DNA from: a virus
Length of the DNA stretch: 33,666 nucleotides
IMG/VR virus record: IMGVR_UViG_3300045256_000080
Span: 1 to 33,666 of that record
Reading direction: 5' to 3' (one strand)
The translations under genes were made by a program, and so were the position numbers. Each line of letters starts with the position of its first letter. Positions within the stretch are counted from its first letter, which is position 1. The notes beneath the pieces were generated by a model, which saw nothing but the letters and a program-made list of their open reading frames with translations, was not told the origin of the DNA and made no database searches. Positions 13,952 to 18,651 of the stretch are shown one piece after another.

Positions 13952-14096
13952 GGCGCTGGTGCGTCAGCACACGGCTGCGCGGTTGCTTCGTGCGGCCGAC
14001 CTTCACGCTGCCGTCGGCAAAGCCCACGAGATAGATGCAGAACTGGTGATCGCCGACCACGGGGTAGATCAGCCGGCGTTTCTTGTGCGCGCCCAT
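13850..14096 (-). pseudogene. GIY-YIG/T5orf172-like domain fragment fused to methyltransferase remnants
   Basis: From ATG at 14096 about 82 residues read as a small GIY-YIG-superfamily domain: Phe-Cys-Ile-Tyr-Leu-Val-Gly-Phe, then Val-Lys-Val-Gly-Arg-Thr-Lys-Gln-Pro-Arg-Ser-Arg, then Val-His-Val-Phe-Gly-Pro-Tyr and Glu-Asp-Trp-Cys-Lys-Ala-Gln-Leu. This resembles the T5orf172/MUG113 group found in phage DNA-binding and nuclease proteins. The similarity stops near 13850, exactly where methyltransferase similarity starts in a different frame. The frame itself stays open to 12945 and would run in phase into the winged-helix gene, giving a 383-residue product whose middle is meaningless. I take it as a truncated gene. 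Confidence 0.6.
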
Positions 14097-14101
14097 TGCG
14101 A

Positions 14102-14353
14102 TCAGTTCGCTGCCTCAGGTGCCGCTTGATCCCGAAGAACGTCCCACGCCACGTCCGGCCGCAGTTCCTCGCACCGGACCTTGCCGTCGGTAGCGCGCTC
14201 GATCAGCGGGCACCGCTCGGCAGGCAGCGGGCGCTCGCCGCGCAGCCACTGGGACATCGCTTGAGGAGTGACGCCAATAAGGCGCGCGAGCTGCGACTGA
14301 CCACCGACGGCCTCACAGGCTCGACCAAGGGGGGAACTGTTCGCTTGGTTCAT
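14102..14353 (-). CDS. Cro-like (YdaS-type) HTH regulator
   Basis: The protein has 83 residues. Residues 20-50 are a Cro-superfamily HTH: Ser-Gln-Leu-Ala-Arg-Leu-Ile-Gly-Val-Thr-Pro-Gln-Ala-Met-Ser-Gln-Trp-Leu-Arg-Gly. Next comes the Pro-Ala-Glu-Arg-Cys-Pro-Leu-Ile-Glu-Arg-Ala-Thr and Cys-Glu-Glu-Leu-Arg-Pro-Asp-Val block typical of YdaS proteins. It is divergent from the repressor gene and heads the early minus operon, the standard Cro position. No purine-rich ribosome-binding site precedes ATG 14353. The predicted start of transcription falls within about two bases of the ATG, so the mRNA appears to be leaderless. No other in-frame start codon precedes the HTH. Confidence 0.85.
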   Translation of the reverse strand: MNQANSSPLGRACEAVGGQSQLARLIGVTPQAMSQWLRGERPLPAERCPLIERATDGKVRCEELRPDVAWDVLRDQAAPEAAN

Positions 14354-14398
14354 AAAGCGAACGGTAAAGCATTGCTTTGGCTTGGTCAAGCATTGCGT
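14354..14398 (-). promoter_or_regulatory. Early minus-strand promoter (cro) with two operators
   Basis: On the minus strand there is a -35 TTGACC (14389-14384), a 17-bp spacer and a -10 TACCGT (14366-14361). One operator fills the 3' part of the spacer (14367-14377) and a second overlaps the -35 (14388-14398), 21 bp apart, two helical turns. The architecture is nearly the same as that of the plus-strand promoter at 15321-15349. Repressor bound here would block the polymerase directly. Confidence 0.8.
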
Positions 14399-14434
14399 TC
14401 GGGTGGGGAATACCCCGAGACTCAAGCAATGCTT
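14367..14434. promoter_or_regulatory. Three repressor operators, consensus AAGCAWTGCTT
   Basis: There are 11-bp palindromes at 14367-14377 (perfect), 14388-14398 (one mismatch) and 14424-14434 (perfect). The third contains the ATG of the repressor gene at 14429, which points to autorepression. Between the second and third is an inverted repeat GGGG-AATA-CCCC (14405-14416). Two further operator copies sit at the plus-strand early promoter. That these are repressor/Cro sites is inferred from repetition, symmetry and position. Confidence 0.85.
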
Positions 14435-14860
14435 ACTGACTCAGAGCGCGTCGCCGAACGCCTGCGCGCTGCCCTGCTCGACAGCAAGGTCAGCGACGTG
14501 CAGCTAGCGAGCGAGTGCGGGGTAACCAAGCAGGCAATCACCGGATGGAAGAAAACCGGGCGCATTGCCAAGAAGCACCTGCCGACAGTCGCCGCGCTCA
14601 CACACAAGCCGGTCGAGTATTTCTTGCTTCAGGAAGTCGATCACATCAAGCCGGCGAAGCCCAGCGCCAGCGACGGACCCGCCAACGCGCTGACGCTCAA
14701 CGCGCTCGAGCACCAGCTGCTGGCTTTCTTCCGGGGAATGTCCGCGGATCACCGGGACGACCTGATCGTGCTTGCCAATCGCTGGTTCATCCACGACAAC
14801 CCGGGGCCGCCATCGGTCGCCGACCCCTATCCCAAGCAACGCAAGAAAGCCAAGGCATGA
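14429..14860 (+). CDS. Short cI-like repressor without a peptidase domain
   Basis: The protein has 143 residues. Residues 6-65 form an XRE-type HTH: Arg-Val-Ala-Glu-Arg-Leu-Arg-Ala-Ala-Leu, Asp-Val-Gln-Leu-Ala-Ser-Glu-Cys-Gly-Val-Thr-Lys-Gln-Ala-Ile, then Trp-Lys-Lys-Thr-Gly-Arg-Ile. This is typical of prophage repressors. The C-terminal part (from about 95) has a helical Leu-Glu-His-Gln-Leu-Leu-Ala-Phe-Phe and Arg-Asp-Asp-Leu-Ile-Val-Leu-Ala segment, probably for dimerisation. There is no LexA/S24 Ser-Lys peptidase domain, so RecA-stimulated self-cleavage is not expected. The start codon lies in an operator. No strong ribosome-binding site or clear maintenance promoter is visible. The stop overlaps the lipoprotein start as ATGA. 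Confidence 0.85.
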   Translation: MLTDSERVAERLRAALLDSKVSDVQLASECGVTKQAITGWKKTGRIAKKHLPTVAALTHKPVEYFLLQEVDHIKPAKPSASDGPANALTLNALEHQLLAFFRGMSADHRDDLIVLANRWFIHDNPGPPSVADPYPKQRKKAKA

Positions 14861-15255
14861 GAGCCCTGCTAGTCCTGCTGCTGCTGGCTGGCTGCGCCAG
14901 CCCCCAAGCCGACCGACACGACCAGATGCACGCGGTGATGGCCGACGTGATGCTGCCGTGGAAAGGCGCAACCATCGAAGAAGTGTCGGCCCGCTGGGGT
15001 CCGCCGGCCAGCAGCCAGAAAGTAGGCACGCTGACGTGGTACACGTGGCGCGACAGCGGCCAGCAGGCGACGCCGGCCGTTGCCGTCACCAATGCCGGCA
15101 TCACAACGATCGCGCCTAGCCAGGTGATCGCGCTGAACTGCAGTCGCCAACTGGCGGTCGACGACAAAGGGCTCGTCGTGCATGGTCGATGGGAGGGCAA
15201 CGCCTGCCCTACCCGCGCCGACGTGCCCGCGGTCCAGTCCTGGCGCCGCCGGTAA
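14857..15255 (+). CDS. Lipoprotein co-transcribed with the repressor; lysogenic conversion candidate
   Basis: The protein has 132 residues with a classical lipoprotein signal: Met-Arg, a run of Leu/Val, then Leu-Ala-Gly-Cys, so the acylated Cys would be near residue 13. The residue after it is Ala, compatible with outer-membrane sorting. The mature part has Pro-Trp-Lys-Gly-Ala-Thr, Arg-Trp-Gly-Pro-Pro and Gly-Thr-Leu-Thr-Trp-Tyr-Thr-Trp, a pattern of small envelope lipoproteins. It is coupled to cI by ATGA and followed by an intrinsic terminator, so it should be made in the lysogen. Superinfection exclusion or surface modification is plausible but not shown. Confidence 0.8.
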   Translation: MRALLVLLLLAGCASPQADRHDQMHAVMADVMLPWKGATIEEVSARWGPPASSQKVGTLTWYTWRDSGQQATPAVAVTNAGITTIAPSQVIALNCSRQLAVDDKGLVVHGRWEGNACPTRADVPAVQSWRRR

Positions 15256-15274
15256 GCCCCTGAACTGAAAAGCC

Positions 15275-15298
15275 AGCCCGCCTTGCGCGGGCTTTTTT
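15275..15298 (+). terminator. Intrinsic terminator after the repressor-lipoprotein operon
   Basis: A 7-bp stem AGCCCGC/GCGGGCT with a 5-base loop is followed by a run of T ending at 15298. It stands just downstream of the lipoprotein stop and before the early plus promoter. It keeps lysogenic transcription out of the recombination and integration operon. Confidence 0.9.
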
Positions 15299-15311
15299 CC
15301 GCCCTTTGGTA

Positions 15312-15349
15312 AACCAATGCTTGACTTCTTATCAGCAATGCTTTACCTT
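15312..15349 (+). promoter_or_regulatory. Early plus-strand promoter with two operators
   Basis: There is a -35 TTGACT (15321-15326), a 17-bp spacer and a -10 TACCTT (15344-15349). Operators lie at 15312-15322 and 15333-15343, each with one mismatch to AAGCAATGCTT and 21 bp apart, in the same positions relative to the hexamers as at the cro promoter. The expected start of transcription is near 15356. The first gene begins at 15384 with AAGGG upstream. Confidence 0.85.
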
Positions 15350-15383
15350 TCACCCAACAACAACACCGCGAAGGGTTCCCCGT

Positions 15384-15737
15384 ATGACCGCCGTCAGCCT
15401 GCAGCACCTGGCCGCCATCGAAGACGCCGAGCACGCCGACCGCGCGCAGCGCCGGCGCGAGGCGATCGACCGCGACGAACTGCACCTGCTCGCGTGCATC
15501 CGCGGCGAGCGGCGCGACCTGACGCTCGACGGCACGGTCGACCTGCTGAACGTCGGCGATGAAGTCGCCAACGTGGCGCTCGACGACGCCGACGGGCTGC
15601 GCAAGCTGGTCCGCGCGTGGGCCACCCGCCCGGCCGATCCGATGGCGGTCTACGACGCCGCCCGCGAACTGTTCGACGCGGCGCTCGAGCGCGTCGCCGT
15701 GTCCCGCCTGCCCGGCCACCTGCGGGACGCGGAATGA
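15384..15737 (+). CDS. First early plus-strand gene, unknown function
   Basis: The protein has 117 residues, highly charged and acidic, without Cys. Segments include Leu-Gln-His-Leu-Ala-Ala-Ile-Glu-Asp-Ala-Glu-His, Arg-Arg-Arg-Glu-Ala-Ile-Asp-Arg-Asp-Glu-Leu-His and Asp-Leu-Leu-Asn-Val-Gly-Asp-Glu. It looks helical and soluble. I do not recognise a family. Being first behind a strong repressor-controlled promoter, it could be an antitermination, host-takeover or replication accessory factor; that is speculation. The start at 15384 is preferred because of AAGGG upstream and its place after the promoter. Confidence 0.65.
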   Translation: MTAVSLQHLAAIEDAEHADRAQRRREAIDRDELHLLACIRGERRDLTLDGTVDLLNVGDEVANVALDDADGLRKLVRAWATRPADPMAVYDAARELFDAALERVAVSRLPGHLRDAE

Positions 15738-16953: not shown

Positions 16954-18651
16954 ATGCAAGTTCACAACGTCACCCAAGGCAGCCCCGAGTGGCACGCCCT
17001 GCGCGCTCGTCATTTCTGTGCGAGCGAAGCGCCGGCCATGATGGGTTGCTCGCCCTACCTAGCGCGCACCGCGCTGCTGCAGCAGAAGAAGACCGGCGTC
17101 GCGCCCGAAGTCGACGCCGGCACGCAGCGCCGCTTCGATGACGGGCACGCGGCCGAGGCGACCTATCGCGGCATCGCTGAACAGGTGATCGGCGACGACC
17201 TGTTCCCGGTCACCGGCTCCCGGGATGTCGACGGGCTGCCGCTGCTCGCCAGCTTCGACGGGCTGACCATGGACTGGCAGACCGGCTACGAGCACAAGCT
17301 CTACAACGCCGACACCGTGGGCTACATGCTCGACCACGACGAGCCGCCCATGCACCACGTCTGGCAACTCGAGCACCAGCTGCTGGTTGCAGGCGCGACG
17401 CGAATCCTGTTCGCGTGCAGCAATGGTGCGGCGGGCCAGCATTGCTTCTACGAGTCCAAGCCCGAGCGCCGCGAGCGACTGCTCGCCGGATGGCGCCAGT
17501 TCGCCGCCGACCTGGCCGACTACGTGCCGCCCGAGATCGTCGAGCCCGTGACGCCGACCCACGTCGAGTCGCTGCCCGCCGTGTCGGTGCGGGTCGAGGG
17601 CTCGCTCGCCGTGATCTCGAACCTCGACGCGTTCGGCACGCGGCTGCGCGCGTTCATCGACTCGGTGCCCACCAAGCCCAGCACCGATCAAGAGTTCGCC
17701 GACGCCGAGAACGCGTGCAAGGTGCTGCAGAAGGCGCAAGACGCGCTCGAGCAGGCCGAGGCCGCGGCGCTGTCGCAAACGGCCGACATCGAGCAGATGC
17801 GCCGCACCGTGGCCGACTACGCCGGGCTGGCCCGCAACACCCGGCTGATGCTCGAGAAGGTCGTCAAGGCGCGCAAGGAACAGGTGCGGGTCGAGATCGT
17901 GACCGAGGGCCAGACCACCCTGCAGCAGCACGTCGCCGCGCTGAACGCCCGGCTCGGCAAGCCCTACATGCCGTCGATCCCGGCCGACTTCGGCGGCGCC
18001 ATCAAGGGCAAGAAGACGCTCGCCAGCATCCGGGAAGCGGTCAACGTGGTGCTGACCAACGCCAAGCTGCAGGCCAACGAGATCGCCGACCGCATTCAGG
18101 TGAACCTCGCCGCGCTGCGCGAGCACGCTAGCGGCCACGCGTTCCTGTTCCCCGACACCGCGGCGATCGTGCAGAAGGCGCCCGACGACCTGCTGGCGCT
18201 GGTGAAGTCGCGGATCAGCGACCACCAGGCGGCCGAGGCGCGGCGACTCGAAGCCGAGCGCGAGCGCATCCGCCAGGAGGAACAGCAGCGGGCGCAGCGC
18301 GAGCTCGAGCAGCGCCAGGCCGCCGAGCGCGCGGCCGCCGCGGCAGCCGCAACGCCAGCCCCGGCACCCGCGCCGGCACCCTCGCCCGCCCCGGCCCCGG
18401 CCACCGCGCCCACGCTGGTGAACTCGGCGCCCGTCGAGCCGACCGCGCCGGCGCGGCTGATGAAGCTCGGCGACATCACGGCCGCGATCGGCCTGCCGCT
18501 GACCGCCGACGTGCTCGCCGACCTCGGTTTCCTGCCGGCCAGCACCGAGCGCGGCGCCAAGCTGTACCGGGCCGCCGACTTCCCGATGATCTGCAGCGCG
18601 CTGGTGGCCCGCATCAACGCCGCGGCCGCCGCCTTCAAGGAAGCCGCGTAG
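16954..18651 (+). CDS. YqaJ/lambda-exonuclease-type recombinase with a long C-terminal extension
   Basis: The protein has 565 residues. Residues 8-17 are Gln-Gly-Ser-Pro-Glu-Trp-His-Ala-Leu-Arg, the family opening. Phe-Asp-Gly near residue 102 and Glu-His-Lys near 113-115 give the Asp...Glu-x-Lys active site of the PD-(D/E)XK exonuclease fold. Residues 225-450 are mostly helical with coiled coil and resemble DUF1351-type regions. A charged helix, then a Pro-Ala linker (about 470-490), leads to a small C-terminal domain with Ile-Thr-Ala-Ala-Ile-Gly-Leu-Pro and Leu-Tyr-Arg-Ala-Ala-Asp-Phe. The enzyme would resect double-strand ends for annealing. It is about twice the usual length of lambda exonuclease because of the fused tail. 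GAGAGGAAG precedes the start. Confidence 0.85.
   Translation: MQVHNVTQGSPEWHALRARHFCASEAPAMMGCSPYLARTALLQQKKTGVAPEVDAGTQRRFDDGHAAEATYRGIAEQVIGDDLFPVTGSRDVDGLPLLASFDGLTMDWQTGYEHKLYNADTVGYMLDHDEPPMHHVWQLEHQLLVAGATRILFACSNGAAGQHCFYESKPERRERLLAGWRQFAADLADYVPPEIVEPVTPTHVESLPAVSVRVEGSLAVISNLDAFGTRLRAFIDSVPTKPSTDQEFADAENACKVLQKAQDALEQAEAAALSQTADIEQMRRTVADYAGLARNTRLMLEKVVKARKEQVRVEIVTEGQTTLQQHVAALNARLGKPYMPSIPADFGGAIKGKKTLASIREAVNVVLTNAKLQANEIADRIQVNLAALREHASGHAFLFPDTAAIVQKAPDDLLALVKSRISDHQAAEARRLEAERERIRQEEQQRAQRELEQRQAAERAAAAAAATPAPAPAPAPSPAPAPATAPTLVNSAPVEPTAPARLMKLGDITAAIGLPLTADVLADLGFLPASTERGAKLYRAADFPMICSALVARINAAAAAFKEAA

Follow-up and report, generated by a model that had tools for sequence, protein, structure and literature searches.

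The 33,666-bp stretch of DNA analysed here (the window) is the whole of the IMG/VR virus record IMGVR_UViG_3300045256_000080, with a G+C content of 69%, and it carries an apparent lysogeny switch with paired operators at two early promoters and a fifth operator on the repressor start codon. The prophage repressor gene (14429..14860, plus strand) encodes 143 aa, in which a domain scan found an N-terminal helix-turn-helix (HTH) with the recognition helix TKQAITGW. Divergent from it lies a cro-like lytic repressor gene (14102..14353, minus strand) of 83 aa with the recognition helix TPQAMSQW. Its assignment in the original prediction was confirmed by the Pfam families P22_Cro and YdaS_toxin, at 99.3 bits (cut-off 30) and 42 bits (cut-off 30.2). 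The layout is of the lambda type, with repressor and cro divergent and operators between them over the cro promoter.

Two operators accompany the cro promoter, whose −35 TTGACC (14384..14389) and −10 TACCGT (14361..14366) lie 17 bp apart on the minus strand. O1, which resembles OR1 of the lambda right operator (OR), is AAGCATTGCTT at 14367..14377 and adjoins the −10, and the OR2-like O2, AAGCATTGCGT at 14388..14398, overlaps both the cro −35 and the predicted −35 of the repressor. The plus early promoter, comparable to the lambda leftward promoter (PL), has −35 TTGACT (15321..15326) and −10 TACCTT (15344..15349), again 17 bp apart, on the plus strand. Here O4, AACCAATGCTT at 15312..15322, has its last TT in common with the −35, and O5, CAGCAATGCTT at 15333..15343, adjoins the −10; both resemble sites of the left operator (OL). 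At each early promoter the −35 takes in the final TT of the outer operator, and 21 bp on the inner operator stops exactly at the −10. The coordinates bear out two promoters of one design, TTGACC-17-TACCGT (−) and TTGACT-17-TACCTT (+), with operators at matching positions, and a pair spacing at this locus of 21 bp for both O1-O2 and O4-O5. Together the promoters form an 18-nt inverted repeat (94%) whose copies are 957 nt apart. The OR3-like O3, AAGCAATGCTT at 14424..14434, lies 36 bp from O2, reads AAGCA-ATG-CTT and spans the repressor start codon as predicted, its sixth base being the A of the ATG (14429).

The window has two copies of the arrangement CAATGCTTGAC-N10-CAATGCTT, and none of 100 dinucleotide shuffles contains it. 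For the bare motif, up to two mismatches gave six matches against 2.8 expected, and the motif count alone was rejected as proof because 7 of 100 shuffles reach six; at up to one mismatch there were six sites against none for a backwards control pattern. The paired arrangement is above chance; the bare motif at two mismatches is weak evidence. A sixth operator-like site with one mismatch (17437-17447) falls within the RecE-like gene and is probably a chance match.

The original prediction also held that the two early arms are controlled symmetrically. Operators of the OL/OR type do lie on both arms, but the third operator, at the repressor start, is present on the minus side only. The transcripts would differ as well: with its ATG 7 nt past the −10 hexamer, cro is predicted to give a leaderless mRNA, while plus-arm transcripts would begin with a leader of about 27 nt. 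For the repressor itself, a putative plus-strand promoter can be placed by sequence at −35 TTGCGT (14393..14398) and −10 GAGACT (14417..14422), 18 bp apart.

Searches with the whole repressor returned no match among phages or viral contigs. Relatives were reached through a Cro search followed by two-sequence repressor alignment, which yielded 38 repressor relatives in viral contigs; among ten records from the Cro search, one had a clear repressor relative and two had weak ones. Non-redundant sets were made at an 80% identity cut and, depending on the comparison, comprised 22 loci (L146 included), 20 loci (window included) or 19 loci (window included). L012, L027 and L144 come from a single record, and so do L011, L024 and L026. 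A separate Cro survey covered the best 80 of 588 loci, mostly near-identical Rac-type copies, with 47 distinct upstream regions.

An operator pair was found upstream of the repressor in 36/38 relatives. In 34/38 the other strand also has a pair with a TTGACA-like −35, at a distance of 57-1599 bp past the repressor; the corresponding gap in the window is 454 bp. This second pair was missing from L111, L143, L144 and L145, of which the sequences of L111 and L144 reach only 2748 and 3186 bp. No operator pair appeared in 114 first-order Markov resamplings of the relatives' loci. A search for the exact paired motif gave 0 matches in viral contigs; both operator-promoter pairs are present in those 34 repressor relatives. 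Among genome contigs the exact pair matched ten times, and since none of the ten stretches contains a full AAGCAWTGCTT site, these matches were treated as chance.

The start-codon operator is conserved in register. An AAGC-N3-GCTT site placed so that base six falls on the repressor ATG was found with at most one mismatch in 38/38 relatives, 31 of them with none. The same register (AAGCR-ATG-CTT) holds in 20/20 non-redundant loci, window included, and any other single offset in at most 9/20; through this operator the first two repressor codons read ATG-CTT (Met-Leu). In these 20 loci, A at −11 and T at −7 before the ATG (A2 and T6 of the putative −10) are invariant, the mean match to TATAAT peaks 12 nt before the ATG, and a Shine-Dalgarno (SD)-like motif precedes it in one locus. 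The register, the −10-like hexamer at −12 and the near-absence of SD motifs predict a leaderless repressor mRNA beginning at the ATG. In 36/38 relatives the cro ATG lies 10-14 nt past O1 (13 nt in the window), so that a leaderless cro mRNA is predicted in the relatives too. Each repressor start was set at whichever in-frame ATG, no more than 110 nt upstream of where the match begins, fitted the operator best; in most loci this is the protein match start itself or a position at most 21 nt away. For L111 (36 nt), L139 and L140 (48), L143 (54) and L145 (99) the choice is less independent, and L130 and L134-L137, with a chosen start 21 nt off, have a second ATG at the match start.

AGGCR-ATG-CTT was found at the Ideonella plasmid locus L151 and at the viral loci L030, L035 and L037. 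An operator on the repressor ATG in all YdaS-type switches was rejected as a rule: by inspection, loci with other repressor families (L013, L015-L020, L028, L029, L148 and L149) lack an operator of AAGC or AGGC type in start-codon register, and in L029 and L149 an operator ends immediately before the ATG. The start-codon operator was not seen in the Neisseria gonorrhoeae relative L146 (best fit 3 mismatches) or at the repressor of Pseudomonas phage LPPA56 (L147). Among 369 genomes from the class of an unrelated genome, two weak repressor matches were found, L106, with no cro gene visible in the stretch examined, and L107, with a divergent cro-like gene and no AAGC-type operator found on the repressor ATG. 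Among the papers listed in literature searches on start-codon operators and leaderless repressors, those on PY54, phiKO2 and CP-933P alone were clearly relevant.

Operator geometry in the window differs from that usual among its relatives. O1-O2 measures 22-24 bp and O2-O3 42-44 bp in 36/38 relatives, so that O2 is centred at −42 to −44 relative to the predicted start of the repressor. The 21-bp spacing was accordingly rejected as a general rule. The window (21/36 bp) shares a minority geometry with L143 (21/37 bp); L145 has 24/36 bp with O1 and O2 matching poorly, and L119 has four operators upstream, its O1 being mis-assigned. Lambda CI activates from about the position that O2 occupies in the relatives. 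O2 of the window is at −36, over the candidate repressor −35 TTGCGT, which makes positive autoregulation from O2 unlikely, and we infer from this placement that the window phage may have lost it.

The operators were also compared with the recognition helices. The repressor (Rep) helix contains 'QA' in the window and 37/38 relatives, and the Cro helix contains QA in the window and 29/38, AA in six (L130, L134-L137 and L144), and SPQF, SPQQ and SVSM in L111, L119 and L145. The last is an outlier, where L145:2330-2420 has CAGC-type operators together with Rep SKSA and Cro SVSM. Five Rac-type loci (L030, L031, L035, L036 and L037) have 'PPS' in Rep, 'PP[ST]' (four) or PAT (one) in Cro, and AGGC-N3-GCCT sites over the cro promoter. 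AAGC-N3-GCTT thus appears to go with 'QA' in Rep and mostly in Cro, and AGGC-N3-GCCT with 'PPS' in Rep, as a correlation and not a strict code; because the loci share ancestry and some depart from the code, the link is no proof. The original prediction had given AAGCAWTGCTT as the immunity specificity. This was too narrow, since the relatives keep AAGC-N3-GCTT with a variable centre and the specificity group is correspondingly broader.

In the lambda plan, early promoters point outward from either side of a repressor unit, one towards the recombination arm and the other towards cro and replication. The window has the same layout. The repressor unit continues with a small predicted lipoprotein gene (14857..15255, plus strand; weak match to phrog_3716, of unknown function) in the slot between repressor and PL, and is closed ahead of the plus promoter by an intrinsic terminator-like hairpin (15275..15293, plus strand). 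The plus arm opens with a gene of 117 aa without a family match (15384..15737, plus strand), followed by a phrog_3657 gene, a RecE-like nuclease, NinB and a single-stranded DNA-binding protein (SSB). No viral relatives were found for the lipoprotein or the phrog_3657 gene. The minus arm holds Cro, a DNA methyltransferase and a DUF1376 primosomal-type gene, and no Rfam family reaches its cut-off within the window. As in lambda, accessory genes lie with the repressor between divergent early promoters, operators are shared, and there is an OR3 analogue. Unlike lambda, the window has two OL sites (counted at up to two mismatches) where lambda has three, O3 on the start codon, O2 off the activating position and no S24 domain found in the repressor.

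The slot between repressor stop and OL pair is variable in L108-L142 (57-1599 bp), much like the rex slot of lambda, and holds lipoproteins, exported or membrane proteins, an RNase_T exonuclease, a PDZ protein and zinc-ribbon membrane proteins. These cargo genes of the relatives are candidates for superinfection exclusion. The closest phage found, L011, has a Cro 77% identical in the matched segment and a DUF1376 gene 86% identical. Its minus promoter has a 21-bp operator pair and TTGACA-17-TACTGT, and its cro promoter, TTGACT-17-TACCGT with the ATG 7 nt on, has one clear and one degenerate operator. A second relative, with a DUF1376 gene 83% identical, L025:4500-5700, carries a different Cro helix, RQSHVSMW; paired AAGC sites are absent, and no repressor match was found in the record, an empty search that shows little.

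Among characterized switches, the locus most invites comparison with the racR-ydaS immunity region of the Rac prophage (Escherichia coli K-12), which was matched in 1084/5426 E. coli genomes. RacR binds the racR-ydaS intergenic region, where GCCTAA/TTAGGC repeats lie (PMC5700373). It forms octamers, its C-terminal domain does not resemble the one in CI, and its sites are four inverted repeats (PMC11014345); a further report states that no racR promoter had been defined (PMC5700377). A letter argues that racR, ydaS and ydaT act as a lambda-like cI/cro/cII locus (PMC5917428). On the question of a CII-like YdaT counterpart, the two open reading frames scanned 3′ of cro in the window are the methyltransferase and DUF1376 genes (small frames were scanned in part). 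Between the window Cro and the YdaS-type Cro from the Rac-type phage vB_EcoS-683R6 the identity is 57%. Like the window, Rac has operators at PR (the rightward promoter) and at a second promoter beside racR, in K-12 TTGACA-17-TATAGT with a 25-bp operator pair; its racR ATG lies inside an operator (TTAAGCA-ATG-CTTAG in K-12), and a DUF1376 gene (ydaU) stands in the cro arm. It differs in that its operators are mostly AGGC-N3-GCCT, with TTAGGC-N3-GCCTAA over the ydaS promoter, rather than AAGC-N3-GCTT as in the window; pairs are spaced at 25-26 bp rather than 21 bp, OR has four repeats, and ydaS has a leader with an SD-like GGAG, unlike the predicted leaderless cro of the window.

Three further systems were compared. 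The CP-933P proteins PaaR2 and YdaS have overlapping binding sites, and both repress PR and a PL whose −35 and −10 elements are identical to those of PR; the paaR2 mRNA is leaderless (PMC8630535). Shared operators at PR and PL, a short repressor and a leaderless repressor mRNA (predicted in the window) are common to both loci; CP-933P differs in its 18-bp repeats of consensus GTTTAGTAA, three OL sites and toxin-antitoxin cargo. The cI and cro mRNAs of PY54 were mapped as leaderless by rapid amplification of cDNA ends (PMC4488713). The immB region of N15 and phiKO2 has, like the window, exactly three OR and two OL operators, and differs in an OL that overlaps the promoter of the replication gene repA and in 16-bp operators with T-A-N10-T-A.

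Taken together, the window very probably holds a temperate-phage immunity region of lambda-like plan (three OR, two OL), closer to that of the Rac prophage, with operator control shared between Rep and Cro. Switches of this kind are known, and the points of note in this one are its conserved start-codon operator and its minority spacing class. In the mechanism that we infer, repressor and Cro would recognise one operator, AAGC-N3-GCTT. Bound as dimers to O1/O2 and to O4/O5, the repressor would in each case cover the −35/−10 region of one early promoter, and both early arms, cro and replication on the minus strand and recombination on the plus strand, would be shut together. The repressor start codon, where O3 has its centre, would by comparison also be the transcription start of a leaderless mRNA. 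Filling of O3 by excess repressor or by Cro would then block repressor synthesis. In lambda, OR3 does the same job.

Several observations weigh against this reading, some of them by way of an alternative. Over its full length the window repressor matches RacR insignificantly (BLASTP E 2.3); the two do show similar N-terminal HTH layouts in a four-sequence alignment. A sigma-70 scan of 14000-15600 lists none of the three promoters, the two early ones included, the start-codon sites of Rac-type loci are AAGC-N3-GCTT or hybrids rather than AGGC-N3-GCCT, and the operators described in the cited studies measure 16-18 bp (PMC8630535, PMC4997575, PMC4488713) against an 11-bp core here. Control might also be divided rather than shared, with the repressor on all five sites and Cro of another specificity, on O3 or some sites only. 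The operators of L111 and L119 are AAGC-type with Cro helices SPQF and SPQQ, without QA or AA, and phiKO2 Cro binds OR3 only (PMC4997575), so that Cro need not bind all five sites. We nevertheless consider divided control unlikely, as 'QA' is common to the Rep and Cro helices of the window and to most of its relatives, both helices differ in the five Rac-type loci tabulated, and in CP-933P both proteins repress PR and PL.

Still less probable is a repressor translated from a normal leader at another start, with the operator/ATG overlap a by-product of where the third operator lies. The −10 hexamers of all three promoters, the GAGACT of the repressor included, match the consensus at 3/6 positions only, and starts were chosen partly by operator fit. 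Set against this are the single register in 20/20 non-redundant loci with its invariant A(−11) and T(−7), the 19/20 loci that have no SD-like motif, and the leaderless cognates mapped experimentally in CP-933P and PY54. We give about as small a chance to a relic, in which repeated promoters persist and the repressor is a truncated, non-working CI without its C-terminal domain. The Pfam scan found no S24 peptidase (autocleavage) domain in the 143-aa repressor, whereas 31/38 relatives have repressors of 216-231 aa, with S24 present in L108, the sole relative of this size that was scanned. In the AlphaFold2 model (n=1; mean predicted local distance difference test score, pLDDT, 66.8) the five-helix N-terminal part is mostly confident and the C-terminus poor. 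At L011:1860-2030, moreover, both early promoters are present with about 90 bp between them and no repressor or lipoprotein gene there; no repressor match was found in its 15.4-kb record, and L011 is possibly a virulent derivative or has its repressor beyond the fragment. The window, however, has an intact repressor frame and has kept all five sites and the start-codon register. RacR, too, works with a C-terminal domain different from that of CI, and PaaR2-His is only about 15 kDa.

The reading as a working immunity region leads to a broader proposal, which we make tentatively and with slightly less than even confidence. A widespread class of switches, from E. coli Rac to high-GC phages, may have its third operator written into the first two codons of the repressor (AAGCR-ATG-CTT) of a leaderless mRNA, so that the same bases would serve as transcription start, start codon and autoregulatory site. 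The 7-bp shortening of O2-O3 in the window and L143 would turn the O2-bound repressor from an activator into an extra repressor. This natural pair of geometries, with O2 at about −43 or −36, may show how lysogeny switches gain or lose positive autoregulation. AAGC-N3-GCTT would define a broad operator group with testable cross-immunity. Finally, our results suggest that in many unannotated prophages the repressor's operator may be readable from its own start codon and, in part, from its recognition helix.
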